DNA of 64,000 nucleotides, from assembly GCA_017459895.1 (NCBI GenBank), contig JAFUCA010000006.1:310001-374000 (forward strand), written 5' to 3'. Below, piece after piece: positions 3,575 to 63,262 of this stretch. A program made the translations under genes and the position numbers. The notes below the pieces were generated by a model, which did no database searches, was not told the DNA's origin, and saw only the letters and a program-made list of their open reading frames with translations. Position 1 is the first letter of the stretch, and each line of letters starts with the position of its first letter. This DNA comes from Bacillota bacterium. GTDB lineage: Bacteria; Bacillota; Clostridia; Peptostreptococcales; Anaerovoracaceae.

Positions 3575-3651
3575 AGACAAAGGATCAGCCAGCCTTTGGA
3601 AACCAAAATGAAACAGGACGGTCACTGCAAGTTCGGATCAGGAGGGAAAAC

Positions 3652-4473
3652 ATGGATGTGAAATTAGGCATATGCAATTTCTGCGTACCGGGTACCGGGA
3701 TCTTCGCCCCGCAGTTCGTGAAGGAGGCGGGACTGGACGGAATGTCCATCGAGTTCGGGACCTATGAGAACCACTATCCTTCCTATACGAGACGGGTGCA
3801 GGATGAGTATCTGGCCGCCGCGAAGGAACTGGGAATCGAATACTGCAACGTCGGAATGAGCTGTTTTGACTTCATACCATTCATCGCTCACAAAGGGGAC
3901 CCCATGCACGAGATCGTGCGTGGGACCCTGCGTGCGGCGATCGATACGGCGGAGTACATGCAGATCCCGATGGTGTTCATTCCGTCTTTCGGCGTCAGCT
4001 CCATCGTCACGGAAAATGATTTTGACAACGCGGTGGAGATGTTCCGGTTTGCCTGCGCCTACGCGAAGGAACGGGGCGTGCTCATCTCCAGTGAGAATAA
4101 GCTGAAAGTACCGAAGCAGATCGAACTCGTGGAGCGTGTCGATTATGAGAACTTCAGCCTGTTCTATGACAGCTACAACTATTTTTATCAGGACGGCTAC
4201 GATCAGCTGGAGATGCTGAAGGGGATGTATCCCTACATGGGACCGCAGCTGCACGTCAAGGACGGCAAGCCCGGCGTGCTGGCAGGTTCGCTGCTGGGGG
4301 AAGGAGATTCCGGGTTCGATAAAGTCATGGAATTCCTTCGGGAAAAGGATTACAAGGGCTGGATCATCAGCGAGAATCTGTACGAGAAGCAGCCCACGAA
4401 CACCTTCGAGACGGATGTCTGGGAGCTGTTCCTGAAAGATGTCGCAACGATGAAGCAGCAGACCGGCCGGTAA
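3652..4473 (+). CDS. Sugar phosphate isomerase/epimerase family protein (TIM barrel)
   Basis: A 273-residue xylose-isomerase-like TIM-barrel protein (AP_endonuc_2 fold). Visible family marks are the acid/histidine metal positions in SSENKLK, FYDSYN, LHVKDG and WIISENLY, spaced as in IolE, IolI, tagatose 3-epimerase and hydroxypyruvate isomerase relatives. The exact reaction cannot be assigned; in this operon an epimerase, ketose isomerase or inosose dehydratase-like role would fit, acting on the imported substrate before or after the SDR step. The ribosome site GGAGGG lies just upstream of the ATG. Confidence 0.75.
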   Translation: MDVKLGICNFCVPGTGIFAPQFVKEAGLDGMSIEFGTYENHYPSYTRRVQDEYLAAAKELGIEYCNVGMSCFDFIPFIAHKGDPMHEIVRGTLRAAIDTAEYMQIPMVFIPSFGVSSIVTENDFDNAVEMFRFACAYAKERGVLISSENKLKVPKQIELVERVDYENFSLFYDSYNYFYQDGYDQLEMLKGMYPYMGPQLHVKDGKPGVLAGSLLGEGDSGFDKVMEFLREKDYKGWIISENLYEKQPTNTFETDVWELFLKDVATMKQQTGR

Positions 4474-4545
4474 GAAGGACAGACAAAGGCTGGCCGGAAC
4501 TGCGAAAGCGCTGGATGCGCGGGATATTTACAGGAGGTAAGACAA

Positions 4546-5322
4546 ATGAGACTTCAGGACAAGGTCATTTTTATCACCGGCGGAGCGAAAGGAATTGGCG
4601 GTGAAACAGCGAAGGTCTGCGCAGGATACGGCGCCAAGATCATTGCGGTTGATCTGAACGAAGATGTTGTTAAAAAGAATGTAGAGGAGATCAAAGCTGC
4701 CGGCGGAGATGCCATCTGGGCGGTCGCCGACGTCAGGAAACGCGACCAGATCAAGGCGGCGATCCAGAAGGGTCTGGATGCCTACGGCCGGATCGACTGC
4801 CTGTTCAATGCGGCGGGCGTGGACCGAATCTGCGGGTTCCTGGACATGAGTGATGACGAATACGATTTCAATATGGACATCAACGTCAAGGGAACATTCA
4901 TTACCTGCGCAGAGGTGGCGAAGATAATGATCCCCAATAAGAAGGGAAGGATCATCAATACTTCTTCCATCGCGGCGGTGCGTGAAGAAGCCTTCAACGG
5001 AACCTACTGCATGTCCAAGGCGGCGGTATCCATGATGACCAGAGTGCTGGCGCTGGAGCTGGCTCCCTACGGCATCACCACCGTGGCCATCCAGCCCGGA
5101 AATATCGAAACGGACATTCTCAGAGAGTCCTTCACTAACCGCGGCAAGGCGGAGGGCAAGGACGTCAGTGAATTCTACGCGGAGATGGAAGCGACCATCC
5201 CCATGGGCTACATCGGACAGCCTTCCGAGATCGCAGAAGTCGTAGCCTTCCTGTGCGACGATCGGTCGGCTTACATCGATGGCAATTCCATCCTGATCGC
5301 CGGCGGGAAGATCATGGCATAG
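4546..5322 (+). CDS. SDR family NAD(P)-dependent oxidoreductase
   Basis: A 258-residue classical short-chain dehydrogenase/reductase. The N-terminal cofactor motif TGGAKGIGGE, the catalytic serine in INTSSIAA and the YCMSK pair are all intact. The acidic VDLNED at the end of beta-2 suggests NAD rather than NADP preference. Within the operon it probably oxidises a hydroxyl of the imported sugar or polyol. A good AGGAGG site lies at about 4532. An exact CAAAGGCTGG word lies in the spacer before it (4484-4493). Confidence 0.88.
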   Translation: MRLQDKVIFITGGAKGIGGETAKVCAGYGAKIIAVDLNEDVVKKNVEEIKAAGGDAIWAVADVRKRDQIKAAIQKGLDAYGRIDCLFNAAGVDRICGFLDMSDDEYDFNMDINVKGTFITCAEVAKIMIPNKKGRIINTSSIAAVREEAFNGTYCMSKAAVSMMTRVLALELAPYGITTVAIQPGNIETDILRESFTNRGKAEGKDVSEFYAEMEATIPMGYIGQPSEIAEVVAFLCDDRSAYIDGNSILIAGGKIMA

Positions 5323-12167: not shown

Positions 12168-15100
12168 ATGGATGGGAACCAGAAGAAATTATACAGGCAG
12201 CTGCAAAGCGCGCTGACGCAGCGGGAGTTCCTCAGGACGATCGGTGTTACGAAGAAGACCATGCAAAAGGTGCTGGACGAGGCGCTGCTGCGGCAGGCCG
12301 CCCGGCAGCTGGCGGAAGTGATCGCAGCAGCAAGCCCCGCGGAAGCGGACGCTCCTGCAAAGGCTGGCGGAAGCGCTCACCCCCAGGTCCCGGTGGATCC
12401 CGCGGCGGTTCTGGAAGCGGTACGTCCGCTGATGGGGGCGCTTCAGAGAGCGATGGGGACAGCAGAAGGCGCGCCCGGGGATGCAGCAGAAGAAATCCCT
12501 GCCCCGGAGCCGGCGGGCGGCTGGCTCTCCGCGGCCTACCGGATGATCCTGTACGACCTCTATCCCCAGCGGCTGGAGGATGCGGGACCGGCGGGCGGAA
12601 AGGATCCGGCCGGTGAACAGGAGCCGGCGCAGGCCCTTCGCCCGGCGGTGTATCTTTACTGCGAAGTGCTGCACACGGTGCTGGAGCAGGAGCGCAGCGG
12701 CCGTGAGGCGCTGCCGTATTTCGACATCGATTTCCTGACCCGGGAGCAGGCGGCGGGCTATTCCGCCTGCGAGGAATACCTGCGCCTCACCAGCCTTTGC
12801 AGGAAGCACTACATCCGGGAGTTTCTGGTGATCTCCGGCGCGGTGAACCCCTTCCAGCTGCTGTCCCATGTGGCCGGCGTACATTACGTGGCGATGCACA
12901 TGGCCCGTCAGCTGGAGGCAAAAGGCGTTCCCGTGGATCTGGCGCTGGTGTCCGGCGCGGCAGCAGCCCACGACATCGGCAAGTTCGGCTGCCGGGACTT
13001 CGAGACGAACCGGATTCCCCACCTGCACTACTACTACACGGACGAGCTGCTGCAGCGGGCCGGCCTTCCGGCCATCGCCCACACCGCCAGCAACCACTCC
13101 ACCTGGGACCTGGAGCTGGAGAACCTGTCCTGCGAAAACCTGCTGCTGATCTACGCGGACTTCCGGGTGAAGAGCCGCCGGGACGGGGAGGGACACGAGC
13201 TGGCCTGCTTTTACAGCCTGGAGGAGGCCTTCGATGTCATCCTGCAAAAGCTGGAGAACGTGGATGAGGCGAAGCGGGAGCGGTATGAGCGGGTCTACAG
13301 CAAGCTGCGGGATTTCGAGGAATATATGAAGAGCCTCGGGGCATCTCCGGAGCTGGACGGAGAGCTGGATCCGTCGGCGGCCTGGGAAGATCCGGCCCTT
13401 CTGGACGGGGCAGGGTCCGTGCAGCGGCTGAAGTTCCTGGCGATCTCCCACAACATCGAAGTGATGCACCGGTTCAGCGATGAGAAGAGCTTCGCGGATC
13501 TGCTGGAGGACGCGAGGAGCGAGCGGGACTGGAAAAACATCCGGGCTTACCTCAACACCCTGGAGGAATACTTCACCTATATGACCGCGGTGCAGAAGCA
13601 GATGACGATCCGCTTCCTGCGGGAGATGCTCATTTTCCGGGCGGGGGATATCCGGCGGCAGTCGGCGTCCCTGATCGGCAGGATCATTGCCTGCTACGAT
13701 GAGAAGTACCGCAAGGAGCTTCCCCGGGACGCGGCGCTGCGGGAAAACCGCATCAGCAGCGGACAGCTGTGGCTGGAGCATCTGCAGGCGGCGACGATGC
13801 CGAGCCGCCAGAGAACGGAGCGGCAGCAGCGGTGGATCGGTTACTCCCTGAAGCAGACCCTGCGGGCTTTGCTCACCAATGCGGATCCCCAGGAGAAAGC
13901 CTGGTACCTGGACCAGTTCCTCCAGCTTTTGCATACAGAGAAACGAAGCGATGCCGTTGTGTTCATCCTTCTGGACACGATCCTGGAGGTGCCCGTGGAG
14001 ATGATCGGGGAGCACCAGATCAGGCAGATCCTGACCTTCTGCGAGCAGGCGATGCAGCGGTCCGTCATTGAGATCCGGGTCGCTGTGCTGCGGAATGTCT
14101 GCAGGATCGCGGAGGAGGGAGACGCCGGTCTTCTCAGTGAGGAGGTCTGCGGACGCCTGGCGGATCTGACCCGGGTGCACGTATCCCGGCCCCGGCTGGT
14201 CAGCGTCGTTTTCCTGAAATACCGGACACTCCAGGCCATCGGGCTTCGGGGCCGGGCGGCGGCGAAGTACCATGAGGAACTGGAAGAGATGGAGGAGGCG
14301 AACGCCGCAATCTTCCGGGAGAATCTGAAGATCGATATCCCGTGGGTCATCAAGGCGGTCAACATCGACGTGATGCTGGATGAGCTCAGCAGCGGCAGAA
14401 GACAGGAAGCCTATTATGTTGCGACCCATCTGTCCAACCTGCTGAAGGTCAGCGAGCGGGTCACCGTGCGGCACAAGGCCGGGCGAAGCCTGCTGCGGAT
14501 CATCGACCTTCTGAACCGGGAGCAGCGGCAGGAGATCGTGATCGAACTGACCAAGGGACTGGAGATCGGAGATTTTCAGTTTTCAAAGTACATTCCGGAG
14601 TATCTGGGCGTCATGATCATGCACCTTCATCCCGAAGAGCTGGACGAAGTCCTGTACGAACTGCATCATCTTCTGCAGACGGGAAACGAGAAGGTGGTCA
14701 GCGTGACGCTGGATACTCTGGGGGTCATGCTGCGGGGCGCTTCGGACTACCGGGTGCGGTTCGAAGAGGCGCCGGAGGCCTTCCGGCAGCGCCGGGACAA
14801 GATCATCGGCATGATGCTGTACGGCATGGCCAACTACCATGAAATGGTCGGACAGGAGGCGTTCCTGGTCCTGGGACAGGGCATCTTCGGAAGCGGGGAG
14901 GTCTCCGCGGAGGAGAAGGCGCAGCTGTTCCGCGTCATGGGAAGGAAAATGCTGACGCTGATCGAGGACAGCAAGGACGAACCGCTGCGGTTCTTTAATA
15001 ACGCTGCTTCGCTGAACCATATCTACCGGTTCATCTCGGACTACGAGCTCAGTGCCGGGCCGCTGCTTCTGGAGGAGAGCCGCAAGGCCGCGTTCTTCCC

Positions 15101-17123
15101 CGGGACCTTCGACCCCTTCTCCCTGGGACACAAGGGGATCGTGCAGGCCATCCGGGCGGAGGGCTTCGATGTCTATCTGGCGCTGGATGAATTCTCCTGG
15201 TCCAAAAACACCCAGGCCAGGCTTTACCGCAAACGGATCATGACCATGTCCTGCGCGGATGAGATCGGCGTCTATATCTTCCCGGACAATCAGCCCATCA
15301 ACATCGCAAACCCCGGGGACATCCGCAAGCTCAAGGACCTGCTCCCGGGCAAGGAGGTGTACATCGTCGTGGGCAGCGATGTGATCGCGGGGGCCAGCTC
15401 CTACCGGATGGATCCGGAGCCGGATTCCATCCACAGCCTGAATCACATCGTCTTCCGCAGAGACAGCGCGGAGCAGACGGAGGAGAGCATCGCGAGCTAC
15501 CGCAAAGGCAGGGCCAAGATCACCGGAGAGGTGCTGGAGCTGAAGCTGCCGGTGCATCTGGAGGACATCAGCTCCACCAGGATCCGGGACAACATCGACA
15601 ACAACCGGGAGATCGCCAGCCTCATCGACCCCGTCGTGCAGAGCTACATCTATGACAACGCCCTGTATATGCGCCAGCCCATGTACAAGTCCATCCTGTC
15701 GGCCCAGGATCTGAAGATCGAGATGCTGCGGGAGAAGGGGCATCTGGCGGGAATTACCATCAGCGACGGAAGCCGGGACGGCCTTGAGATCGCGCAGATC
15801 CGGGTGCACCCCGTGGAGATGGGGCATCTGTATGAGGAGTTCGGCGACCAGCAGCTGGCGGCGTGGATCCGGGAGAAGGCGCCGGGCAAGACTCTGATCA
15901 TTCACCGGGCCGAGGCGCTGCGCAATGCCATCGACGCGGACGGCTACCAGCTGGTGCTGACGGAGGTGCTTTCGGCGGCGCTGGAGGAGGACTATACCTA
16001 CGCGATCTATCACGACCCGAAACCGGGGAAGGATCAGGCGCACTTCGTCGAGGTGCTCACCCGGCAGGGCTTCCGGGAGATCGTGGTCAAAGGCCGGCCC
16101 ACCGGCTGCTACAGCGTCGATATGCACAGCCCCGTGACGATCCTGCAGAACATGAACACCGTGCTGAAGAGCCCCTTCAATAAGAATCCCCGGGTGGAGG
16201 AGACGCTGGCCATGGCCCATATCCGGCTGCAGCACGCCCTCACGCGCCTGTTCCCGGACACCCTGATCCTGTCCTACAACTCGGCGATCATGTACCACAA
16301 GCTGATCCACCGCATCACGAAGGAGAACGGGGTGCCCGCCCGGCAGCAGAAGAAACGGAAGCTGGGCCCCTATATGTGCGTTCCCTTCGGCAAGATCCTC
16401 AACGGCATGGCGGTGCCGAACACGGTCACGAAGACCTTGCACCTTCAGAAGAGCTTTGCGCCGGATCTGGAGAGCTTCCGCATCCGGGAGTATCCGAACT
16501 ACGCCGGCATCGATGATCAGGTGCGGACGATCCGGTCCTTCCGCCGGGAGGTCATTCTGGTGGATGATCTGCTGCACAAGGGGTACCGGATGCAGCGCCT
16601 GGATCCGGTGATCCGGGACAACGGCCTGAAGGTGCACAAGATCATCGTCGGGATCCTGTCCGGCCGGGGCAGGGATCTGATGACCGTGCAGGGAAGGGAT
16701 GTGGACAGCATCTACTTCATTCCGAACCTCAGGGCCTGGTTCGTCGAATCCTCCCTGTATCCCTTCATCGGCGGAGACGGCGTTGAGCGGCATACCGGCA
16801 CCATCGATGACGATCTGACGGCGATCAATCTGATCCTGCCCTACGTCATGCCCCGGTTCCTGCTGCGCCGGTGCAGCAGGGAGGCGATCTATGAGTTTTC
16901 GGAGATCTGCCTCGAGAACACCCGGACGATCCTGAAGGTCCTGGAGGAGGAGTACCAGAGGGAGTTCCAGCGCAAGCTGACGCTGCAGAGGATCTCGGAG
17001 GCGGTGTTCGCTCCCCGGCTGATCGACGTGGGACAGTGCCTTGACTTTGACCGGACCATTGCGGCCAGCGCTTACGTTGAGGACGATATCGAGCGGCTGC
17101 AAAGGCTGAAGAATCTGATCTGA
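12168..17123 (+). CDS. Giant HD / helical / NMNAT-like / phosphoribosyltransferase-like protein
   Basis: A 1651-residue cytoplasmic multidomain protein. Residues about 220-400 hold an HD-type region with AAAHDIGKFG near 265. Residues about 430-960 look like a long all-helical repeat region. Near 975 comes FFPGTFDPFSLGHKG, the nucleotidyltransferase GxFxPxxxGH motif, and near 1128 comes DISSTRIR, the ISSTxIR signature of NadD/NMNAT enzymes. Residues 1200-1310 resemble an acyltransferase-like fold only weakly. Near 1460 VILVDDLLHKGYR matches the PRPP loop of type I phosphoribosyltransferases. Firmicute nadD often neighbours the HD protein yqeK, so an HD plus NMNAT fusion makes sense, but the whole reaction is unknown. 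It leads a three-gene operon. Confidence 0.8.
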   Translation: MDGNQKKLYRQLQSALTQREFLRTIGVTKKTMQKVLDEALLRQAARQLAEVIAAASPAEADAPAKAGGSAHPQVPVDPAAVLEAVRPLMGALQRAMGTAEGAPGDAAEEIPAPEPAGGWLSAAYRMILYDLYPQRLEDAGPAGGKDPAGEQEPAQALRPAVYLYCEVLHTVLEQERSGREALPYFDIDFLTREQAAGYSACEEYLRLTSLCRKHYIREFLVISGAVNPFQLLSHVAGVHYVAMHMARQLEAKGVPVDLALVSGAAAAHDIGKFGCRDFETNRIPHLHYYYTDELLQRAGLPAIAHTASNHSTWDLELENLSCENLLLIYADFRVKSRRDGEGHELACFYSLEEAFDVILQKLENVDEAKRERYERVYSKLRDFEEYMKSLGASPELDGELDPSAAWEDPALLDGAGSVQRLKFLAISHNIEVMHRFSDEKSFADLLEDARSERDWKNIRAYLNTLEEYFTYMTAVQKQMTIRFLREMLIFRAGDIRRQSASLIGRIIACYDEKYRKELPRDAALRENRISSGQLWLEHLQAATMPSRQRTERQQRWIGYSLKQTLRALLTNADPQEKAWYLDQFLQLLHTEKRSDAVVFILLDTILEVPVEMIGEHQIRQILTFCEQAMQRSVIEIRVAVLRNVCRIAEEGDAGLLSEEVCGRLADLTRVHVSRPRLVSVVFLKYRTLQAIGLRGRAAAKYHEELEEMEEANAAIFRENLKIDIPWVIKAVNIDVMLDELSSGRRQEAYYVATHLSNLLKVSERVTVRHKAGRSLLRIIDLLNREQRQEIVIELTKGLEIGDFQFSKYIPEYLGVMIMHLHPEELDEVLYELHHLLQTGNEKVVSVTLDTLGVMLRGASDYRVRFEEAPEAFRQRRDKIIGMMLYGMANYHEMVGQEAFLVLGQGIFGSGEVSAEEKAQLFRVMGRKMLTLIEDSKDEPLRFFNNAASLNHIYRFISDYELSAGPLLLEESRKAAFFPGTFDPFSLGHKGIVQAIRAEGFDVYLALDEFSWSKNTQARLYRKRIMTMSCADEIGVYIFPDNQPINIANPGDIRKLKDLLPGKEVYIVVGSDVIAGASSYRMDPEPDSIHSLNHIVFRRDSAEQTEESIASYRKGRAKITGEVLELKLPVHLEDISSTRIRDNIDNNREIASLIDPVVQSYIYDNALYMRQPMYKSILSAQDLKIEMLREKGHLAGITISDGSRDGLEIAQIRVHPVEMGHLYEEFGDQQLAAWIREKAPGKTLIIHRAEALRNAIDADGYQLVLTEVLSAALEEDYTYAIYHDPKPGKDQAHFVEVLTRQGFREIVVKGRPTGCYSVDMHSPVTILQNMNTVLKSPFNKNPRVEETLAMAHIRLQHALTRLFPDTLILSYNSAIMYHKLIHRITKENGVPARQQKKRKLGPYMCVPFGKILNGMAVPNTVTKTLHLQKSFAPDLESFRIREYPNYAGIDDQVRTIRSFRREVILVDDLLHKGYRMQRLDPVIRDNGLKVHKIIVGILSGRGRDLMTVQGRDVDSIYFIPNLRAWFVESSLYPFIGGDGVERHTGTIDDDLTAINLILPYVMPRFLLRRCSREAIYEFSEICLENTRTILKVLEEEYQREFQRKLTLQRISEAVFAPRLIDVGQCLDFDRTIAASAYVEDDIERLQRLKNLI

Positions 17124-17132: not shown

Positions 17133-18101
17133 ATGAGAAGACTGCATGAATTATGTGAAAGGGAATACATCCGCACCGGGGAAGACCGGTTTCTGATCCC
17201 GGGAGGGCCGGCCTTTGCGGGGCAGAAGGTCCGGGTCCATATCCTGGCCATGGGGGATGTGGGAGGCACTCTGGCGCTGGCCATGAAGCTGACCGGAGCG
17301 GATGTGCTCTCCGGGATCGGCATCTGTGATATCAACGAGCGCATGCTTGCCCGGTGGGAGCAGGAGCTGAACCAGATCGTTGCGCCGGCGGATCCGGAGG
17401 CGTTCCCTCCGGTGTGCAAAGTCTCCCCGGAGCAGCTGTTCGACTGCGATGCCTTTGTCTTCTGCGCCTCCCGGGGCGTTCCGGATCTTTCGGAAAAGAA
17501 CGTGGATGTGCGGATGGTCCAGCTGGAGAAGAACGCGGAGATGATCGCGGGCTACGGCCGGCAGGCGGCGGAGGCGGGCTTTCGCGGGGCGTTCTTCGTG
17601 GTGTCGGATCCGGTGGATCCGCTGTGCGCGGCTGCTGCAAAGGCTGGCGTCTGCCCGGATCAGATCCAGGGATTCGGCCTGGGGGTAATGAACGGCAGGG
17701 CGGCATATTACGCGGCCGGAGATGAGAGGATGGCGTCCTACCGGACGGAAGGCCGGGTCTTCGGGCCCCACGGAGAGGATCTGGTGGTGGCCAACAGCAT
17801 CAGATCGTATAATGACGATCTGTCCCGGGAACTGACCCGGATGACGGTGAACGCGAACCGGCAGATCCGGGAGCTGGGATTCAAGCCCTATATCGCGCCG
17901 GCGGTCTCCTCGGGAGCGCTGTCGATCCTGGAGAACCTGCGGGGAGGCTGGCACTACAGCTCCGTCTGCTTCGGCGGCGCTTTCCTGGGCCTGAGGAACC
18001 GCAGAACGGATGCCGGCATCGAAGTGGAAGACCAGCCTTTGGATGAGAAGCTGTTCGCCCGGATCGAGACGGCGTACCGGAATCTGGAGGGGCTGCTATG
18101 A
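17133..18101 (+). CDS. Lactate/malate dehydrogenase superfamily protein
   Basis: A 322-residue NAD-dependent 2-hydroxyacid dehydrogenase homologue. The dinucleotide motif AMGDVGGTLA near residue 37 is a variant of GxGxxG; SDPVDPL corresponds to the NPVD loop and VFGPHGED to the catalytic-histidine loop of LDH/MDH. The usual arginine loop is altered (CASRGVP). It starts 9 bp after the giant gene and overlaps the next gene by 4 bp, so it likely works in the same pathway. Substrate not predictable; ordinary lactate dehydrogenase seems unlikely given the divergence and context. Confidence 0.75.
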   Translation: MRRLHELCEREYIRTGEDRFLIPGGPAFAGQKVRVHILAMGDVGGTLALAMKLTGADVLSGIGICDINERMLARWEQELNQIVAPADPEAFPPVCKVSPEQLFDCDAFVFCASRGVPDLSEKNVDVRMVQLEKNAEMIAGYGRQAAEAGFRGAFFVVSDPVDPLCAAAAKAGVCPDQIQGFGLGVMNGRAAYYAAGDERMASYRTEGRVFGPHGEDLVVANSIRSYNDDLSRELTRMTVNANRQIRELGFKPYIAPAVSSGALSILENLRGGWHYSSVCFGGAFLGLRNRRTDAGIEVEDQPLDEKLFARIETAYRNLEGLL

Positions 18102-22049: not shown

Positions 22050-22061
22050 AAGGAGACGGAA

Positions 22062-23057: not shown

Positions 23058-23069
23058 CGGAGAACGGAA

Positions 23070-24116: not shown

Positions 24117-24137
24117 ACGGAGATCAGAGGAGCTGCC

Positions 24138-24452: not shown

Positions 24453-24462
24453 CGAGGATGCT

Positions 24463-25816: not shown

Positions 25817-25835
25817 TTCCGGAAAGGATAGAGCG

Positions 25836-26891: not shown

Positions 26892-26915
26892 GGGACTGGC
26901 CGGCCCCGGGGAACA

Positions 26916-47943: not shown

Positions 47944-48186
47944 TCAGCGCAGATTGAATGCGAAGATCGGCGTCCACTCCGGAGCTTTCTCCGCGATGGT
48001 ATCCGCAGCCTTTGCAGCGGGATAATGCATCGCGATATAGGGGCAGCCCTCGATGGCCGAAGCAAGTCCCGATTCGGCGACGGCCGCTCTGGCCTGATCC
48101 TCGGTGATCTGATAGCGATCGACCAGAAGGCCGGCGACGCGGGCGAGATAGTTTTCGGTGGTGTGCATTCTTTCGTAAAATGTCAT
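47944..48186 (-). CDS. Small hypothetical protein
   Basis: An 80-residue, helix-rich soluble protein (YERMHTTENYLARVAGLLVDRY ... APEWTPIFAFN) that I do not recognise. A perfect AAGGAGG site lies 7 nt upstream of its ATG, and coding bias looks genuine. It sits directly behind an intrinsic terminator on the same strand (48235-48201), so its expression may depend on read-through. Confidence 0.65.
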   Translation of the reverse strand: MTFYERMHTTENYLARVAGLLVDRYQITEDQARAAVAESGLASAIEGCPYIAMHYPAAKAADTIAEKAPEWTPIFAFNLR

Positions 48187-53079: not shown

Positions 53080-53131
53080 TCGTAATACATAATACAAAGG
53101 CTGGCGAAGGCCGCACAATGGAGACGCCCCA

Positions 53132-54787: not shown

Positions 54788-56734
54788 ATGGAAGCGGAAC
54801 GATTTGAGATCGACAATGGAATATTGATCCGGTATACCGGAGAGGACTCCGCGTTGGTGCTCCCGGAGGGAGTGACGGAGATCGCGTTCCGGGCGTTTCA
54901 CAACTGCCGGATGCTCCGGGAGGTGCGCCTGCCGGAGAGCCTGGTCTGCATACGCCAGGAGGCCTTTCATCTGTGCTCCGCCCTGGAGGAGGTCTTCGGC
55001 GGGGAGCACGTGACCCGGATCGAACGGGATGCCTTCACGGGAACGCCCTGGCAGCGGCGGTACGCGGGAAATGAGACCGGCTGGAAGGAAGACGAAGGCG
55101 AGTTTAAGATGATCGGCAACGTGCTGGTCCGGGCGAAACGGAATCTGCGTCAGGCGGTGATTCCCGAAGGAACGGGGATGATCGCGGCGGATGCTTTCGC
55201 GGACTGCACCCTGATGGAACGGGTGGAGATCCCCTCGTCGGTGACGTACATCGGATGGCGGGCGTTTACCGAATGCATGTGCCTGACCCACATCCGCATC
55301 CCGGGAACCTGCCGCCGGATCGGCTGGCACGCCTTCGAGAAATGCAACCGGCTGAAATCCATCGATCTGGAGGAAGGCATCGAGATCATGGAGAACGGGG
55401 TGTTCTCCAGCTGCCGGAGCCTGCAGCAGGTGCGCATTCCCGCCAGCGTGAAGCGTTTCGGCGGATGGATGTTCTTCAGCTGTGTCAACCTGGAGGAGGT
55501 CTGGTTCGACGGACCGGTGAAGGAACTGCCCGAGCGGTGCTTCTCCAGCTGCTTCAAACTGCAGTACGTTCATCTGGCGAAGGGGCTGGAGCGGATCGGC
55601 GTCGAGGCCTTCTACGAATGCACCGTGCTCCAGGAGGTGATCCTGCCGGAGGGCGTGAAGCACATCGAGCGGCTGGCCTTCGGCCGGGACCGGTATTTCG
55701 AAACGCTGGTGCTCCCGGAAAGCCTGGAGAGCCTGGATGAATCGGTCTTCCACGGATGCGCCGGGTTTACGGAGCTTACCCTGCCGGGTCATCTGCAGGA
55801 ACTTCCCGCCAGCACCTTTCACGGGTGCGCCGGCATCGAGAAGCTGACCATCCGGGAGGGAGTGCGGAAGCTGGGAGCACACGGCTTCGCCGGCTGCCGC
55901 AGGATCCGGGAACTGGATATGCCGTGCTCCATGGAGGAGGTCGGTGACGGAGCATTTGAAGGATGCTCCGGATTGACAAGGGTCAGCCTGAAGGAAGGGA
56001 TCCGGCGGCTGGGTCATGCAGCCTTTGCGGGATGCACGCGGATGGAGCGCATCGACCTGCCGGACAGCCTGGAGCAGATCGGAGACCTTTGCTTCGACCA
56101 CTGCTTCGCCCTGGCGGATCAGGACGGGATGATCCTGCAGGACGGCGCGTTCTATGCCTGCGTGGAGAAAAAGAGCGAGCTGACCCTGCCGGAGGGCTGC
56201 CGCAGGATCGCCAGCGGAGCCTTCGCGGGAAACGCGAATTACCGCAGGATCGTCGTTCCGCAGGCAGTAGAAGCAGCCGGGGACGGGCCCTTCCGCCGGT
56301 GTGAGCATCTGGAGGAAGCGCTGGTGCTTTCGCCGCAGATCCGGGATCTGGGAGAGGATCCCTTTGACGGATGCCGGCGGCTTCAGACCATCACCGTCTG
56401 CGGGATGGAGCCGGAGAAGTTTCAGGACGCATCCGTGCGCATCTGCGCGGCCCTGGGATTCGGGGAGCACTACGAGCGGTATCCGGAGAAGGTGGCAGCT
56501 TCTTACCGGAGGTTTGCGGGGAAGCATCTGGAGGAGATCCTGCGGGCGGCCATTGACCGGCAGCTGACCCGCGCTCTGCGGTACTTCACCGAGCAGCGTG
56601 TGATCGGAGCGAGGCAGCTTCCCGGGCTTCTGGAATACGCGCAGAAAAAGCGGGCGATGGAGATCGTGGCGCAGCTGCTGGACTACCGCAGCGAATGGGA
56701 AGAGATCGACGTGTTCGATCAGTATATACTGTGA
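54788..56734 (+). CDS. BspA-type leucine-rich repeat protein, cytoplasmic
   Basis: A 648-residue protein built of about 18-20 LRR_5 (BspA-like) repeats of roughly 23 residues with the pattern AFxxCxxLxxVxLPxSL, for example RAFHNCRMLREVRLPESL and AAFAGCTRMERIDLPDSL. No signal peptide or membrane segment, unlike surface BspA proteins, so it is likely an intracellular scaffold. The last ~90 residues are helical without repeats. It sits between the VWA and MoxR genes; the ATG at 54788 is preferred, with TTG 54782 possible. Confidence 0.88.
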   Translation: MEAERFEIDNGILIRYTGEDSALVLPEGVTEIAFRAFHNCRMLREVRLPESLVCIRQEAFHLCSALEEVFGGEHVTRIERDAFTGTPWQRRYAGNETGWKEDEGEFKMIGNVLVRAKRNLRQAVIPEGTGMIAADAFADCTLMERVEIPSSVTYIGWRAFTECMCLTHIRIPGTCRRIGWHAFEKCNRLKSIDLEEGIEIMENGVFSSCRSLQQVRIPASVKRFGGWMFFSCVNLEEVWFDGPVKELPERCFSSCFKLQYVHLAKGLERIGVEAFYECTVLQEVILPEGVKHIERLAFGRDRYFETLVLPESLESLDESVFHGCAGFTELTLPGHLQELPASTFHGCAGIEKLTIREGVRKLGAHGFAGCRRIRELDMPCSMEEVGDGAFEGCSGLTRVSLKEGIRRLGHAAFAGCTRMERIDLPDSLEQIGDLCFDHCFALADQDGMILQDGAFYACVEKKSELTLPEGCRRIASGAFAGNANYRRIVVPQAVEAAGDGPFRRCEHLEEALVLSPQIRDLGEDPFDGCRRLQTITVCGMEPEKFQDASVRICAALGFGEHYERYPEKVAASYRRFAGKHLEEILRAAIDRQLTRALRYFTEQRVIGARQLPGLLEYAQKKRAMEIVAQLLDYRSEWEEIDVFDQYIL

Positions 56735-56742
56735 GGGTAACC

Positions 56743-58371
56743 ATGAATATCAAGCAGGCGAAGGAACAAATCAAGAACGCGATGACAGCGTATTTCTCGA
56801 AGGATGATCTGGGCAACTACGCGATCCCCATCGAAAAACAGCGGCCGGTACTGCTGATCGGTCCGCCGGGCATCGGCAAAACGGCGATCATGGAGCAGAT
56901 CGCGGCGGAGCTGGGGGTAGGGCTGGTGTCCTATTCCATGACGCATCACACCCGTCAGTCGGCCCTGGGCCTGCCCTTCATCACCCGGCAGGAATTCGAG
57001 GGATACGAGTATCAGATGTCCGAATACACCATGAGCGAGATCATCGGGTCGATCTACGCGCTGATGCGGGAGACCTCCGTAAGGGAGGGAATCCTGTTTC
57101 TGGATGAGATCAACTGCGTATCGGAGACTCTGGCGCCCTGTATGCTGCAGTTCCTGCAGTACAAGGTGTTCGGTCAGCATCAGATCCCCAAAGGCTGGAT
57201 CGTGGTGACTGCCGGCAATCCCCCGGAGTACAACAAATCCGTCCGGGATTTTGACATCGTCACCTGGGACCGGCTCAAGCGCATCGACGTGGAAGCGGAC
57301 TATGAGACCTGGAAGGAATACGCCTCCGCCAAAGGGGTGCATCCGGCGGTCCTGACCTATCTGGCCGCGCGGAAAAAGGATTTCTACAAGGTGGAGAGCA
57401 CGGTGGACGGCAAGCATTTCGTAACGGCCCGGGGCTGGGATGACCTGTCGGAGATGATCCGCCTCTACGAGGCGAATGGCATCCCGGTGGATGAGCTTCT
57501 GATCGGACAGTACATTCAGACGCCGAAGATCGCCAAGGATTTCGCCATCTACTATGATCTGTTCCGCAAGTACCGCAGCGATTATCAGATCGACCGGATC
57601 CTGGCGGGAACGGCCGGGGAGGACGTCCTGTTCCGGGCGCAGCGGGCGCCGATGGATGAACGGATGAGCTTCCTGGGACTGCTCTTCGACGCCGTGACCG
57701 CGAAGCTGCGGAGCACCTGTGAGAAGGAGGATACGCTGAATCTGCTGACCCCGGTGCTCCGGGAGGTGAAGACCGAGATGACGGGGCAGGGAGGATCGAC
57801 GGATACGGCGCAGCCGGCGGCAAATCCGGCCGAGATCCTGGAGGAACACGTGCGCAGGCAGACCGAGACGCTGGAGAAGGGCCGCCGGGCATCGTCGCTG
57901 TCCATGAATCAGGTCCGGGCCATGCAGCGGCAGATCAGCGTCCTTGAGGGGATGCGGGCGGACCTGCTGCGGCAGGGGATCCATGACGGAGCGGAAGGAT
58001 TCGCCCTCGTGCAGCAGAGCTACCGGGAGCTGGTGGAGGAGCTGAAGGCTTCGGCCGCCGAGGGCTCCGAGGTTCTGAAGGCTGCCTTTGACTTTTGCGA
58101 GCGGGCCTTCGAGGAGGAAGAAAAAACCACGAGTCAACTTAGCAGCTCGGCGCAGGGCCGAGTCACGAGTCAACTTAGCAGCTCGGCGCAGGGCCGAGCC
58201 ACGGACGAAATCCTGGTCTTCGTCACGGAGCTGACGGTCACTTACTATACGGCACGATTCATAGGTCACTATGGATGCGATAAATATTACCTGCACAATA
58301 AGGAACTTCAGTTTGCACAGCGCCAGATGGAAATCGAACAACAGGTTAATGCGCTGGATCTCGATTTATAA
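56743..58371 (+). CDS. MoxR-type AAA+ ATPase
   Basis: A 542-residue AAA+ protein. Walker A GPPGIGKTAIMEQ near residue 45, Walker B ILFLDEINCV near 120, sensor 1 VVTAGNPPEYN and the arginine-finger region VTWDRLKRIDV are intact. The C-terminal 230 residues are helical and include a 12-residue tandem repeat (TSQLSSSAQGRV/A) encoded by a 36-bp DNA duplication. It probably remodels a client together with the VWA protein. Start ATG at 56743, 8 bp after the LRR stop. Contains a CAAAGGCTGG word (57189-57198). Confidence 0.9.
   Translation: MNIKQAKEQIKNAMTAYFSKDDLGNYAIPIEKQRPVLLIGPPGIGKTAIMEQIAAELGVGLVSYSMTHHTRQSALGLPFITRQEFEGYEYQMSEYTMSEIIGSIYALMRETSVREGILFLDEINCVSETLAPCMLQFLQYKVFGQHQIPKGWIVVTAGNPPEYNKSVRDFDIVTWDRLKRIDVEADYETWKEYASAKGVHPAVLTYLAARKKDFYKVESTVDGKHFVTARGWDDLSEMIRLYEANGIPVDELLIGQYIQTPKIAKDFAIYYDLFRKYRSDYQIDRILAGTAGEDVLFRAQRAPMDERMSFLGLLFDAVTAKLRSTCEKEDTLNLLTPVLREVKTEMTGQGGSTDTAQPAANPAEILEEHVRRQTETLEKGRRASSLSMNQVRAMQRQISVLEGMRADLLRQGIHDGAEGFALVQQSYRELVEELKASAAEGSEVLKAAFDFCERAFEEEEKTTSQLSSSAQGRVTSQLSSSAQGRATDEILVFVTELTVTYYTARFIGHYGCDKYYLHNKELQFAQRQMEIEQQVNALDLDL
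58128..58199 (+). repeat. Tandem 36-bp repeat with internal hairpin, in frame
   Basis: Two adjacent 36-bp copies (58128-58163 and 58164-58199) differ at one base. Each contains CTCGGC-GCAGG-GCCGAG, an inverted repeat able to form a 6-bp hairpin. Because 36 is a multiple of three, the coding frame of moxR is kept. The nature of the unit (hairpin plus short flank) resembles a dispersed palindromic mini-element rather than random slippage. Confidence 0.85.
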
Positions 58372-58938: not shown

Positions 58939-60120
58939 ATGAAGATCAACAAAAAAGAAATCAAAGACTATATCCTGAACGTGGAGATCCTGGTGGACAA
59001 GGACGAGTTCGACCGGGCCCGCCACGCGGCGTATATGGAGCGGACGGACCGGTATCCCGTCATGGGAAAGGCTCCGGGACTGGCAACTCTGCAGGATCTG
59101 GAGATGACCTACGGACCGGCGGTGCTCTTTGACGAGGCGCTGGAGACGGTCATTCCGGGCAGCTTCAATCAGGTGCTGGAGGAGGGCGGACTTCGGATCA
59201 TGGGCCGGCCCCAGGCCACCGATATGCAGTTCGTTCCCGGCGGCGGCGTGAAATTCACGGTGAAGGCGGACCTTTACCCGGAGGTCAAACTGGGGCAGTA
59301 TCTGGGGATTGCGGTTCCCTTCCGGCGCAGCGAGCAGCAGCTGGAGTTTGAGCGGGCGGTGGTGCAGAAGGCCTGCGAGAATATGCAGGGGGAGATCCCT
59401 CCGCACATGGTCGAGCAAAAGCTGGATGCGATCACGGCCCAGGAAAAGATCAATGTCAACAACGACGCGGTCTATCACCTGCTGGCGGATATGCTGGTGG
59501 TGCTGGACGAAGCCTACAAGGCGGCGGGGGCCGTTCGCCCGATGGTGCAGGTGCGCCGGGAAGCCATGGACCTGATGCTCCAGACCGCATCGGCGGAGCA
59601 CGAGCTGGACTGGAAGGAGTTCTTCCGCTCCCAGATCCGGGACATGGTGGAGCGGTATCACGATCTGCCCGGTGACTTCGACGAGCAGGTCACGAAGATC
59701 CTCGCGGACAGGGACAAGGCAAAGGCCGGTCAGTCCCCGGAGGAGAGAACGGAGGAGCTGTTCAAGGCGTACCTTGGATCTCTGGAACTGACCGAGCAGC
59801 AGTGGCGTAACCAGCGCCAGCTGCAGGCGGCAAGGGATGTGTGTCTGGATCTGCTGCTGGATGCCGTCGCCGCGGAGGAACAGATCCAGGTCAGCGCAGA
59901 TGAGATCCACCAGTTCATCGAGGACATTGCGGCCCAGGCCAACATGGAGCCGGAGGAAGCCGAGGCGAACATCAACAAGGATCCCCTCATCTGGAAAATG
60001 CAGCGGGACAAGGCTCTGGCCCTGATCCTGAACAGCGCCGTCACCGATGAAGAGGGCAAGAAGGCGCTGGATGAAAAGCGGGCGAAGGCCCGGGAAAAGG
60101 CACAGGCCGAGGCGAACTGA
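58939..60120 (+). CDS. Trigger-factor-like chaperone lacking the PPIase domain
   Basis: A 393-residue protein related to trigger factor. Residues 1-120 follow the TF N-terminal domain (VEILVDKDEFDRARHAAY, MGKAPGLATLQDLEMTYGP, GGVKFTVKADLYPEVKLGQYLGI). The ribosome-docking GFRKGK loop is replaced by YPVMGK. The FKBP-type PPIase domain is absent; the rest matches the helical TF C-terminal arms (IPPHMVEQKLDAITAQ, SADEIHQFIEDIAAQANMEPEE). Likely a dedicated assembly chaperone for the MoxR/VWA operon rather than a ribosomal one. ATG 58939 preferred (AAGGAG 8 nt upstream); GTG 58936 possible. Confidence 0.72.
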   Translation: MKINKKEIKDYILNVEILVDKDEFDRARHAAYMERTDRYPVMGKAPGLATLQDLEMTYGPAVLFDEALETVIPGSFNQVLEEGGLRIMGRPQATDMQFVPGGGVKFTVKADLYPEVKLGQYLGIAVPFRRSEQQLEFERAVVQKACENMQGEIPPHMVEQKLDAITAQEKINVNNDAVYHLLADMLVVLDEAYKAAGAVRPMVQVRREAMDLMLQTASAEHELDWKEFFRSQIRDMVERYHDLPGDFDEQVTKILADRDKAKAGQSPEERTEELFKAYLGSLELTEQQWRNQRQLQAARDVCLDLLLDAVAAEEQIQVSADEIHQFIEDIAAQANMEPEEAEANINKDPLIWKMQRDKALALILNSAVTDEEGKKALDEKRAKAREKAQAEAN

Positions 60121-61499
60121 TGGGAAATCCTCTCGAGACCGAACGTATATCAAAGCTGCTGGTCAGCTTTTGCATCCCGTCCCTTGCCAGCAGTCTGGTC
60201 ACCTGCCTGTACAACATCGTGGACCAGCTGTTCATCGGAAACCTCCTGGGGGTTGCCGGAAACGCGGCGACGAATGTGGTGTTCCCGGTGGTGACTCTGA
60301 TCACGGCGCTGTCGCTGATGTGCGGCGTGGGACCCTCCAACGCGATGAACATCTACCGGGGCAAAGGTCAGATTGGGGAAGCCCGCCGGTGCGTGGGCGG
60401 CGGATTCGGAATCATGGTGCTGGCCGGACTGGTCTGCATGATCCCGATGCTGATCGCCACTGAGCCGCTGCTGCATCTCTTCGGCTGCACGGATACGGTC
60501 ATGCCGGTGGCAGCCCCCTACGCGCGGATCATTTCCCTGTCCTTCGTGTTCTCCATCATCGGAGCATCGGGACCGTTTCTGATCCGAGCGGACGGAGCAC
60601 CGAACTATTCGCTGGCCGTGGTGGCGGCAGGGGCGATCCTGAACATCCTCCTGGACGCGCTGTTCATCTACGGATTTCACTGGGGGATCCGGGGCGCCGC
60701 CTGGGCAACGCTGATCGCGCAGGCGGTGAGCACGGCGATGGTCCTCTGGTATATGAAACGGAGGTTTGCAGCCTTTGCGCTGAAACCCTCCGACTTTCGG
60801 CCGGACGCGAAGCTCTACGGACAGATGATCGCCATTGGTATCGGCCCGGCGTTCAACTTCGGGACGCAGGCCATCGTACAGGTGTTCCTCAATAACGCGC
60901 TGCGCAGTTACGGCGCGGCGTCGGTCTACGGCAGCGATGTGTGCCTGGCGGTGGCGGGGGTGGCCAACAAGGTGAATACGCTGGCCAATGCCATCATCGT
61001 CGGACTGACCAACGGACTGCAGCCCATCGCCTCCTTTAATTTCGGACGCAAAAACTACGGCCGGGTGGCGGAGGCCGCGAAGAAGGTGGTCCTGATGGTG
61101 GTGATCATGGGGTTTGCCGTGTTCCTCTGCTACCAGCTGCTGCCGGTGCAGATCACATCGTTATTTGGCGATGGGAATGAGGAATACTTCGAATTCGCGA
61201 AAAAGTTCTTCCGAATCTTCTTCCTGCTGATCCCGCTGTACGGACTGCAGAGCTCCATCGCCGGATTCTTCTCCGCTCAGGGGAAGGTGTCCCGGGCGAT
61301 TACGATCTCTCTGGTGCGGCAGGTGATCTTCTTTCCGCCGCTGCTGATCCTGCTGCCGAAGATTCTCGGACTCACCGGAGTGCTGTGGGCGGGACCGCTG
61401 GCGGATCTTGCCATGGCGGTCACGGCAGGTACGCTGTTCGCGCGGGAGCTGCAAAAGCTGGAGCGGGCAGAGGCGGCGAAACGGCCGGCTACTCGCTGA
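60120..61499 (+). CDS. MATE family efflux transporter
   Basis: A 459-residue protein with 12 predicted membrane segments in two halves. It begins with the family pattern (ISKLLVSFCIPSLASSLVTCLYNIVDQLFIG) and has the second-half counterpart (FNFGTQAIVQVFLNNAL ... NGLQPIASFNFGRKNYGR). Exports drugs or metabolites using a sodium or proton gradient. The ATG shares one base with the upstream stop, so it is translationally coupled to the trigger-factor-like gene. Its 3' end overlaps the convergent regulator gene by 11 bp. Confidence 0.93.
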   Translation: MGNPLETERISKLLVSFCIPSLASSLVTCLYNIVDQLFIGNLLGVAGNAATNVVFPVVTLITALSLMCGVGPSNAMNIYRGKGQIGEARRCVGGGFGIMVLAGLVCMIPMLIATEPLLHLFGCTDTVMPVAAPYARIISLSFVFSIIGASGPFLIRADGAPNYSLAVVAAGAILNILLDALFIYGFHWGIRGAAWATLIAQAVSTAMVLWYMKRRFAAFALKPSDFRPDAKLYGQMIAIGIGPAFNFGTQAIVQVFLNNALRSYGAASVYGSDVCLAVAGVANKVNTLANAIIVGLTNGLQPIASFNFGRKNYGRVAEAAKKVVLMVVIMGFAVFLCYQLLPVQITSLFGDGNEEYFEFAKKFFRIFFLLIPLYGLQSSIAGFFSAQGKVSRAITISLVRQVIFFPPLLILLPKILGLTGVLWAGPLADLAMAVTAGTLFARELQKLERAEAAKRPATR

Positions 61500-62202
61500 T
61501 CTCCAGACCCTGCATGTGCTCCTCCAGAGCATGGATGTCCGGGAAGCGCAGCACTCCGTCCGCTGAATCCACCAGTCCGAGCTCCTTGAGTTCTTTGAGT
61601 TTGCGGGTGACAGTGACCCGGTTCAGGCCCAGGATATCAGCGATCATCTGATGACTGAACCGACGGGACAAAAGCCAGCTGCCGTCCTCCTGCTGCTTCC
61701 CGTAGTGAGCAATGTAAATCAGCAGCATCTTGCAGATCTTCCAGGATGCGCTCTGGCGGGGGCCCAGGCGAAGATGCTCCATTGCGGACAGGAATTTGGT
61801 GGAAAGGGATTCGCAGACGTCCATGACGATGTCGATGTCCCGCTTGAGGGCGCGCTTCAGATCGCATTTCTCGATGCGGATCAGCTCGCACTGATCCAGT
61901 GTCCGAAACTGAATCGGACAGGGTTTGTCGAAGAGCATGCACTCTTCCAGGAACAGGGAACCGGGCTCCATGATGTTGTAGACCCGCTGATCTCCGGCAT
62001 AGGAGATCTCATAGCAAAGAACCTGACCGGACCGCACGACATAGCAGAAGTCAGGAATTTCATCGATCTCGTTCAGAATCGTATCCTTCGGTACGATCTC
62101 CCGCCTGCCAAGTTTCTCTAGCCGTTCGATCCCGCGGGGGATATACAGAAGGTGATACAGATAATCTTTATCTGCCTGAATGGTGTAGTTACTCTCACTC
62201 AT
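61489..62202 (-). CDS. Crp/Fnr family transcriptional regulator
   Basis: A 237-residue regulator with a cyclic-nucleotide-binding-like beta-barrel (residues about 20-135, GQVLCYEISYAGDQRVYNIMEPGSLF) and a winged-helix DNA-binding domain (SHQMIADILGLNRVTVTRKLKELKELGLV). No N-terminal cysteine cluster like Fnr, so the signal is unknown. GGAGGTGGTGTC ribosome site. It converges on and overlaps the MATE gene. Confidence 0.92.
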   Translation of the reverse strand: MSESNYTIQADKDYLYHLLYIPRGIERLEKLGRREIVPKDTILNEIDEIPDFCYVVRSGQVLCYEISYAGDQRVYNIMEPGSLFLEECMLFDKPCPIQFRTLDQCELIRIEKCDLKRALKRDIDIVMDVCESLSTKFLSAMEHLRLGPRQSASWKICKMLLIYIAHYGKQQEDGSWLLSRRFSHQMIADILGLNRVTVTRKLKELKELGLVDSADGVLRFPDIHALEEHMQGLEISE

Positions 62203-62344
62203 GACACCACCTCCGTTGCTCTCAATATATCACAGCGGGAAATGAAATGCATACGTTTTTTGCCGGCGGAGGATGCTTGCTGCCGGAGGCAAATCATGGT
62301 AGGATGTCGAAAACAGTATTTCGCTAAGCGACAGGAGTTGGAAC

Positions 62345-63262
62345 ATGAAAAACCTGGTGATCATCGGGGCCGGTCAGATGGGCCGGGCGGCGGCGGAGCT
62401 GGTGGATCCGAACCGGTTCCGCATTTTGGCGTTCGGTGACAACGATCCGAAGAAGCAGGCGGCAGGCCAGGGAGCGGCGGTTCCGGTCCTGTCCGTGGAG
62501 GAGGCGCTGCAGTCCGGCCCGGACGCGGCGCTGATCAGCGTGCTGGGAAGGGACCGGACGGATGCGCTGGTCCGCCAGATCAGAGAGGCGGGATTTACCG
62601 GCGCGGTGCACTGCCTTCTGGACAGCTACGAGCTGTTCGATGTTCGCAGCCGCTGCATCGGCCAGCTGGCCCGGCGGATCCGGCAGCTGCAGATCCCGGG
62701 AAGCCTGGCGGAGCTGGGGGTCTACCGGGGGGATACCGCCTGGCAGCTGAATGCTTTGCTTCCGGACCGGAAGCTGTATCTGTTTGATACATTTGAAGGA
62801 TTCGACGCGCGGGATGTGGCCCGGGAGCAGCCTCAGGCTGCGACGGGGGAAGTATCTCCCCACGCGAAGACCGGCCGGTTCGCGGACACTTCGCCGGAGG
62901 CGGTACTGGCCAGGATGCCGCATCCGCAGATGGTGGAGATCTGCCGGGGATATTTCCCGGAGTCTCTTGGGAAGCTGGGCGGAAGCGAGTCAGATGCTCC
63001 CGCCGGGGAAGCGGAGCATTTCTTCGCTCTTGTGAGTCTGGATCCGGATCTGTACGCGCCGACGCTGGCGGGACTGGAATACTTTTATCCCCGCATGAGT
63101 CCCGGCGGGGCCATCGTTGTGCACGACTACAACAACCTGCAGTTCGAAGGGGTGAAGCAGGCGGTGACGGAATTCGAACAGGCCGTTACGAAGCGGACCG
63201 GCCAGCCTTTGCATATGGTGCCGCTGGCGGACCTGCACGGAAGCTGCGTGATCCTGCGGTAG
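62345..63262 (+). CDS. Rossmann-fold plus TylF/MycF-type methyltransferase fusion
   Basis: A 305-residue protein. Residues 1-90 form a nucleotide-binding Rossmann unit (NLVIIGAGQMGRAAAELVD ... FGDNDPKK) like sugar-acetyltransferase N-terminal domains. Residues about 110-300 match TylF/MycF-type SAM methyltransferases: ELGVYRGDTAWQLNALLPDRKLYLFDTFEGFD, LVSLDPDLYAPTLAGLEYFYPRMSPGG and VHDYNN. Such fusions are often in polysaccharide or natural-product modification. Contains a CCAGCCTTTG word (63202-63211). Substrate unknown. Confidence 0.82.
   Translation: MKNLVIIGAGQMGRAAAELVDPNRFRILAFGDNDPKKQAAGQGAAVPVLSVEEALQSGPDAALISVLGRDRTDALVRQIREAGFTGAVHCLLDSYELFDVRSRCIGQLARRIRQLQIPGSLAELGVYRGDTAWQLNALLPDRKLYLFDTFEGFDARDVAREQPQAATGEVSPHAKTGRFADTSPEAVLARMPHPQMVEICRGYFPESLGKLGGSESDAPAGEAEHFFALVSLDPDLYAPTLAGLEYFYPRMSPGGAIVVHDYNNLQFEGVKQAVTEFEQAVTKRTGQPLHMVPLADLHGSCVILR

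Follow-up and report, generated by a model that had tools for sequence, protein, structure and literature searches.

The word CAAAGGCTGG, which recurs on both strands throughout a 2.5 Mb genome belonging to a genus of uncultured Clostridia, probably acts as a DNA-uptake sequence, a type of mark that lets some competent bacteria tell the DNA of their own kind apart; we infer this role from a combination of features known from DUS and USS elements, namely hundreds of copies, presence on both strands, use of genes as well as spacers, a core with dialects, and transformation genes in the genome that bears it.

Abundance, shape and placement of the motif

In the window, the whole 64-kb stretch of DNA analyzed, we counted 16 exact copies of CAAAGGCTGG, eight per strand, spanning positions 3589..63211 (Table 1), compared with a mean of 0.15 and a maximum of 2 in 100 dinucleotide shuffles. 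Genes called by codon usage contain 12 of these copies, which between them occupy every codon phase in both directions, and the remaining four lie in spacers. The count, the even split and the placement all agree with a preliminary description of this DNA. The entire genome contains 791 copies (395 and 396 by strand), whereas the reversed word, used as a control, occurs seven times (4 + 3). Across 464 kb (400 kb of genome plus the window), 178 exact copies were found versus 1.6 expected under a third-order Markov model; the fourth-order expectation is 3.2 in 400 kb. The preliminary description had named a count near the Markov expectation, or a single codon pair or protein motif behind the word, as results that would speak against it. 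Neither was found, since the copies occupy all six reading frames as well as spacers.

The core word CAAAGGCTGG lies within a longer motif, TG-CAAARGC-TGG (about 12 bases), whose weak flanks reach positions -5 and +15 (T at -5, T at -2, G at -1 and C at +15), with no long flank common to the copies in the 464 kb. Mismatches in this sample are tolerated unequally, in a protein-like manner. The fifth-base G>A variant is frequent (52 copies versus 1.9 expected), and substitutions of the last base are also tolerated (22, 33 and 25 copies); variants in the AAA, the seventh base C or the ninth base G have only 0-3 copies.

Spacers hold 40 of the 178 copies, at twice the coding density. The reading frame requiring Trp is the least used (9 of 75 same-strand copies), indicating that coding constraint shapes the placement of the word. 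Close inverted pairs of the kind known from terminators in Neisseria were not in excess: among 320 sites, six inverted and seven direct neighbors lay within 60 bases. Similarly, 17 inter-site gaps were under 100 bases versus 21 expected.

Table 1. Copies and variants of the motif, and pilus genes, in the 64-kb window
Feature	Positions	Strand	Remarks
Exact CAAAGGCTGG	3589..3598	-	spacer
Exact CAAAGGCTGG	4484..4493	+	spacer
Exact CAAAGGCTGG	12358..12367	+	within ORF 12168-17123 (+)
Exact CAAAGGCTGG	12790..12799	-	within ORF 12168-17123 (+)
Exact CAAAGGCTGG	17638..17647	+	within ORF 17133-18101 (+)
Exact CAAAGGCTGG	18032..18041	-	within ORF 17133-18101 (+)
Exact CAAAGGCTGG	23801..23810	-	within comGB/pilC-like gene
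Exact CAAAGGCTGG	27680..27689	-	within GGDEF gene 26916-28298
Exact CAAAGGCTGG	30933..30942	+	within ORF 30793-32019 (-)
Exact CAAAGGCTGG	33559..33568	+	within ORF 32099-33778 (-)
Exact CAAAGGCTGG	40291..40300	-	spacer
Exact CAAAGGCTGG	41673..41682	-	within ORF 40383-41981 (+)
Exact CAAAGGCTGG	47055..47064	+	within ORF 46242-47366 (+)
Exact CAAAGGCTGG	53095..53104	+	spacer
Exact CAAAGGCTGG	57189..57198	+	within ORF 56695-58371 (+)
Exact CAAAGGCTGG	63202..63211	-	within ORF 62345-63262 (+)
Variant CAAARGCTG	13245..13253	+	
Variant CAAARGCTG	13923..13931	-	
Variant CAAARGCTG	17100..17108	+	
Variant CAAARGCTG	21871..21879	-	
Variant CAAARGCTG	25650..25658	+	
Variant CAAARGCTG	29081..29089	+	
Variant CAAARGCTG	38035..38043	+	
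Variant CAAARGCTG	46014..46022	-	
Variant CAAARGCTG	48006..48014	-	
Variant CAAARGCTG	56019..56027	-	
Variant CAAARGCTG	59416..59424	+	
Variant CAAARGCTG	60164..60172	-	
Variant CAAARGCTG	60769..60777	-	
Variant CAAARGCTG	61452..61460	+	
ComGB/PilC-like pilus platform protein (T2SSF)	23070..24116	+	Pfam T2SSF 4.1e-42; NCBIfam GspF/PilC/ComGB matches all under cut-offs
104-aa protein, hydrophobic N-terminus	24138..24452	+	resembles a pilin in position and appearance; no convincing family match; same place in relatives
DUF4860 pilin-like protein	24463..24939	+	Pfam DUF4860 1.1e-8
159-aa pilin-like protein	24936..25415	+	ComGG model E 0.076, under cut-off
134-aa pilin-like protein	25412..25816	+	no convincing family match
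PilT-family pilus ATPase	25836..26891	+	TIGR01420 411 bits, cut-off 319

Dialects and conservation across the genus

Dense occurrence of the inner core GCAAARGC marks a supported clade inside one genus of uncultured Clostridia, of which we know of no cultured member. Because the reversed-word control of GCAAARGC differs in CpG content, we used density per Mb, dividing each count by the genome size (rounded to 0.1 Mb). Genomes with 300 per Mb or more were considered motif-positive and those with 190 or less motif-negative, with none of the 49 genus genomes in between; this yielded 35 positive and 14 negative genomes. Thirty of the 49 exceed the highest of 192 genomes from other genera (G101, 402 per Mb), seven of which are over 300, with the eighth, G190, at the line. 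In a GyrB tree, 29 of the 30 positives included form one clade (support 100/98). G070 passes the cut-off and sits outside this clade. A scan for comparable words in the other GyrB loci, omitting loci under 11 kb, returned mainly DnaA boxes and low-complexity words, and was weak, recovering the known word in only four of seven motif-positive check loci.

While the core is common to related species, the bases that follow it differ. The endings TGG and AAY are clearly distinct between close species, and a third ending, A, is probably present in some. The A ending is less sure because A also follows the core in 0.56-0.75 of sites in three small motif-negative samples (G009, G031 and G065); endings beyond these three rest on small samples.

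We compared the sites of G000 with orthologous positions in four relatives, counting the best non-overlapping alignments and leaving out one of two overlapping G003 loci. In G011, which shares the dialect, 13 of 17 sites were kept versus 17% of control 9-mers (p 1.4e-7), and in G003, which has the other ending, 1 of 33 (control, 14%). Only 2 of 13 were kept in G001, also of the same dialect (control, 14%), and none of five in G010 (control, 8%). The conservation in close relatives that the preliminary description had suggested examining was seen in G011 but not in G001 or G010. Its broader proposal, in which the DNA word itself is the target of selection or spread, gains support from the six frames, the spacers, the strand symmetry and the conservation in G011.

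Competence genes and receptor candidates

G000 carries ComEC, ComEA, Tad and comG-like pilus genes, and the window includes a comG-like operon. The ComGB/PilC-like protein is possibly part of an uptake pilus. The DUF4860 protein and the 159-aa protein, the latter being the least recognizable gene of the cluster in relatives, are weak receptor candidates. Models of their structures, built without an alignment, have low confidence, with mean pLDDT values of 59 and 52, respectively; that of the DUF4860 protein displays a long N-terminal helix followed by strands.

The presence of ComEC, ComEA and Tad fails to separate motif-positive from motif-negative genomes. ComEC was detected in 30 of 35 positives (including, by hand count, 15 of the 15 at least 88% complete) and 10 of 14 negatives. 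ComEA passed the cut-off in 30 of 35 and 13 of 14, missing from the positives G002, G003, G011, G012 and G035. A Tad-linked TadE-like protein (L228:14744-15505) occurs in 47 of the 49 genus genomes, negatives included, and was therefore rejected as a presence/absence marker. It contains two C-terminal YHxxxC...CxxC units, and the family search gave a weak Pfam TadE match under the cut-off, none in NCBIfam, and none better than E 0.4 among PDB sequences. The comG-like ATPase does not track the motif either (21/35 positives, 6/14 negatives; Fisher p 0.35) and is absent from 14 of the 35 positives, including G030 (98% complete) and G021 (96%), which led us to reject the window operon as the sole receptor locus. 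Overall, the presence of pilus receptor candidates does not follow the motif across the genus genomes.

Since A-ending genomes have two comG types, comG type and ending do not match one to one. The ComGB of G003 is 67-72% identical to those of G004, G013, G014 and G018 and 40% identical to that of G000, in contrast to the GyrB tree, which places G003 beside G000. Omp85 was found in none of the 49 genus genomes, while 7 of 14 control genomes gave a match; the lineage is probably monoderm.

Explanations and comparison with known systems

The preliminary description had offered an uptake word, a Chi-like site, a nucleoid or segregation signal and an inserting mini-repeat. The uptake word fits best. 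The occupation of all frames and spacers, the lack of leading/lagging bias and the differences by substitution make Chi sites, KOPS-like signals and inserted mini-repeats a bad fit. Chi sites and KOPS-like segregation signals would likewise be short words over-represented in coding and spacer DNA alike, and we consider either very improbable: judged against GC skew, 157 sites are leading, 157 lagging and six ambiguous, a symmetrical outcome of the strand check named earlier; moreover, the motif has flanks and exceeds known Chi words in length, and close species have different endings. The high copy number would suit a mini-repeat or the terminal sequence of a mobile element, yet this is even less credible, as the copies lack a long shared flank and presence or absence by insertion, as in REP/MITE-like repeats, was not the pattern in the alignments with the four relatives. 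Among G000 sites unshared with them, 41 of 52 differ by substitutions and 11 lie in gapped alignment, and of the relatives' own unshared sites only 1 of 17 is gapped. The earlier question of insertion or substitution is thus answered mostly by substitution in ungapped alignment. A codon-pair, protein-motif or base-composition artefact could be read into the little-used Trp-requiring frame, but the six frames, the spacer density and the low Markov expectations leave it a negligible chance.

Another DNA-binding process, such as a nucleoid protein or a repair or recombination hotspot without polarity, kept by selection or biased gene conversion, is unlikely but deserves more weight. The uneven mismatch tolerance and weak flanks indicate recognition by a protein, which need not take place at uptake, and motif-negative genomes hold competence genes too. 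However, the endings switch between close species around a fixed core, with sites kept in G011 and lost in G003. Such dialects would be an uncommon feature in a DNA-binding protein with a housekeeping role, and they resemble those described for neisserial uptake sequences in PMC3630211.

As an uptake sequence, CAAAGGCTGG could be maintained as follows. In competent cells, word-bearing DNA would be bound by a sequence-specific minor pilin of a surface pilus, either Tad or comG-like, and retraction of this pilus would pass the DNA to ComEA and ComEC. Recombination would then write word-bearing fragments back into the genome. This biased import would constitute a drive, perhaps together with selection for taking up the DNA of kin, causing the word to accumulate at places where it is nearly harmless, and a change of receptor would shift the dialect. 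As no Omp85 was found, the word would be recognized at the pilus or at the single membrane.

PMC5031613 describes uptake sequences for two Gram-negative families, and a 2026 survey of terminators (PMC13020248) names the same two, Neisseriaceae and Pasteurellaceae; we found no earlier report from Bacillota in searches of an open-licence library. Similar to the neisserial DUS, the motif is a word of about 12 bases with hundreds of copies, a fixed inner core and species dialects, using both genes and spacers in genomes with competence genes. It differs in that the word is unrelated, the host belongs to Clostridia without detected Omp85, inverted pairs are not in excess, and no counterpart of the receptor minor pilin ComP was identified here, the pili being Tad or comG-like. 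With the Pasteurellaceae USS it shares a 9-10-base core, weaker flanking positions and strand symmetry, but its flanks are single positions rather than AT-rich stretches, and word and phylum differ; the predicted USS receptor, PpdA/ComN, concerns a Gram-negative minor pilin. Cyanobacterial HIP1, whose role is debated, is also a short word over-represented genome-wide; HIP1 is a palindrome, unlike the asymmetric CAAAGGCTGG with its varying endings. The Chi sites of Bacillota are short over-represented words as well, but Chi words are shorter and strand-biased, unlike the evenly divided sites here.

We lean towards the view that DNA-uptake sequences have arisen independently for a third time, and for the first time in a monoderm Bacillota lineage, where the pilin of a Tad or comG-like pilus reads several dialects in one uncultured gut Clostridia genus; the dialects would act as barriers to recombination between gut species, and horizontal replacement of the pilus operon may go along with a dialect switch. 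If so, a probably monoderm gut lineage evolved the uptake-sequence device on its own, as the third such case and with no gate in an outer membrane. The motif would then flag those uncultured gut Clostridia in which natural transformation is likely, and its dialects would offer fresh material for testing the joint evolution of receptor and word.

Abundance, placement and shape of the word

The 10-mer CAAAGGCTGG had been singled out in the preliminary description as strongly over-represented, and a pattern search bore this out, returning 16 exact copies in the window, eight on each strand, where shuffled sequence averaged 0.15. The window lies at C34:310001-374000 of the genome G000 (a 2.50 Mb assembly of 55 contigs, 93% complete with 5% contamination). 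The excess extended across this genome, which carried 395 forward and 396 reverse copies; the control word, CAAAGGCTGG read backwards, occurred seven times in the whole assembly. In 464 kb of this genome, 178 exact copies were counted where a third-order Markov model expected 1.6, a comparison of the kind proposed in the preliminary description.

Using a simple purpose-made gene caller, we assigned 138 of these 178 copies to genes, 75 on the coding strand and 63 on the opposite strand, with all three phases used in each, as first described for the window. The remaining 40 lay in spacers, at twice the density of coding DNA. Sites of the variant-tolerant form CAAARGCTG were evenly oriented with respect to local GC skew (157 leading, 157 lagging and 6 ambiguous, in stretches that included one skew switch). 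The spacing of exact copies was near random (coefficient of variation of the gaps, 0.91), and close pairs of sites showed no excess.

Aligning 177 of the 178 copies (one was too close to an end) revealed flanking preferences for T at −5 (0.49), T at −2 (0.67) and G at −1 (0.77). Downstream, A or C was favored at +10 and C or G at +11, and C reached 0.58 at +15. Tolerance of single changes in the 464 kb was uneven. The AAA run and the C and G at the seventh and ninth bases were strict, with 0–3 copies per change, the last base was loose (22, 33 and 25 copies for its three changes), and the G-to-A change at the fifth base was found in 52 copies where 1.9 were expected. Such unequal tolerance suggests the preference of a protein that binds the word, and mutational decay alone would hardly produce it.

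Distribution among relatives and dialects

Among 60 relatives examined, exact CAAAGGCTGG was numerous in G011 (477), G010 (388) and G001 (375); the other 33 same-genus genomes held 0–41 copies and 24 same-order genomes 0–13. A k-mer scan of stretches from further relatives recovered the related words GCAAAGGCA and GCAAAAGCA. By density of the inner core GCAAARGC, the 49 genus genomes fell into 35 positives (305–862 per Mb; threshold at least 300) and 14 negatives (70–186 per Mb; threshold at most 190), with none between. A family-wide count covered 197 genomes, five from the same genus and 192 from other genera. Seven of the 192 exceeded 300 per Mb (G101, 402; G114, 356; G245, 334; G217, 325; G152, 316; G090, 311; G231, 305) and G190 lay just under the cut at 299.7, while 30 of the 49 genus genomes were denser than 402 per Mb. 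In G101 and G114, reversed-word counts were much lower than core counts; their dense core may reflect a related word or merely suitable composition.

A GyrB tree took in 41 of the 49 genus genomes, the other eight, including G010 and G011, having no GyrB match at the cut. It placed 29 of 30 positives in one clade (support 100/98), whose sister, G019 with G024, was negative. The positive outside this clade, G070, had 321 cores per Mb and the highest control count among the 49. One outgroup row was placed, weakly supported (85/52), next to the negatives of the genus. The closest named GyrB relatives were gut MAGs of Bacillota/Clostridia, with Family XIII and Mogibacterium records lower down, and six genus genomes shared sequence with the named MAGs RGIG2468, SIG265, Horse_feces275, RGIG1659, S37M_St_28 and S16M_St_34.

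Tallying the letters that follow CAAARGC, in sampled stretches of 2 kb to 504 kb from 47 of the 49 genomes (the samples of G002, G012 and G025 are small and say little), revealed distinct endings. TGG made up 0.49–0.61 of sites in G000, G001, G010 and G011; G068 was mixed (TGG 5/13, AGG 5/13); AAC/AAT reached 0.54 of 114 sites in G003 and 0.38 of 16 in G035; and G013, G030, G032 and G033 showed little preference. About a dozen genomes, including G004, G007, G008, G014, G017, G020 and G066, favored A. Because three negative samples were also A-rich (G065, 0.75 of 12; G009, 0.59 of 17; G031, 0.56 of 18), the A ending leans more on the counts of GCAAAGGCA against Markov expectation (18 versus 1.1 in G007, 10 versus 1.3 in G014 and 15 versus 1.3 in G020).

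We compared individual sites in best, non-overlapping alignments, with other 9-mers as control. G000 sites were intact at 13 of 17 positions in G011 (control 17%, p = 1.4e-7), 2 of 13 in G001 (control 14%) and 0 of 5 in G010 (control 8%). In G003, whose ending differs, 1 of 33 was intact (control 14%, depletion p = 0.043). Of 52 unshared sites, 41 differed by substitution and 11 lay in gapped alignment.

Candidate uptake genes

ComEC was found in 40 of the 49 genus genomes (30/35 positives, 10/14 negatives), a ComEA-type HhH protein in 47, 43 of them over cut-off (30/35 positives, 13/14 negatives), and T2SSE ATPases over cut-off in 44. Omp85 was found in none of the 49; the same search was positive in 7 of 14 control genomes. 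The Tad cluster was read in G000 and G018, and its TadE-like protein occurred in 47 of 49. Relatives of the ATPase from the window's comG-like operon, sharing at least 50% identity, occurred in 27 of the 49 genomes, and the operon was absent from the well-assembled positives G030 and G021. Among candidate uptake genes, Tad with ComEC is the more general set.

The GyrB tree placed G003 beside G000 (93%), yet ComGB of G003 was 67–72% identical to those of G004, G013, G014 and G018 and 40% to that of G000, which shared 81% with G001 and 92% with G011. The TGG group thus has a comG type of its own, suggesting that the operon was exchanged together with the dialect. This is a single event, however, the A-ending genomes had two comG types, and the absence of the operon from G030 and G021 also speaks against a general link.

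Several further observations concern these loci. Two differing comG-like clusters on short contigs of G010 (L161 and L162), with ATPases 69% and 92% identical to the window's, are either a second system or a contaminant. ComEC of G011 (L246) was 47% identical to that of G000 (L238), where median protein identity was 81% (22 proteins).

Coordinates of the features discussed
Feature	Location	Observation
comG-like operon	window 23070-26891	
comG-like operon and flanks	window 19963-28298	Response-regulator/GGDEF/EAL gene (two genes between) and GGDEF gene; c-di-GMP may control the pilus
Pilus ATPase, two copies	window 25836-26888; G000:C14:1334-2386	100% identical; perhaps assembly redundancy of the MAG
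TadE-like protein	L228:14744-15505 (G000 contig C1)	Two YHxxxC...CxxC units in C-terminal half, kept in 11 genus loci; no match to a Pfam zinc domain or in NCBIfam, and none convincing in PDB; may be a pilus protein that binds DNA
ORF, 1651 aa	window 12168-17123	Weak matches below cut-off, one of them to nicotinate-nucleotide adenylyltransferase; unusually long for that enzyme

Overall reading

Background was drawn from PMC5031613, PMC3630211, PMC12616744, PMC1852404, PMC3694846, PMC3597990 and PMC13020248. Searches of an open-licence library, outside which most subscription papers lie, found no report of uptake words in Bacillota, judged by titles and abstract openings. The sequence patterns are demonstrated, and from them we infer uptake, a receptor for the word and a drive. 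Overall, the best account of CAAAGGCTGG is probably a DNA-uptake sequence system with dialects.
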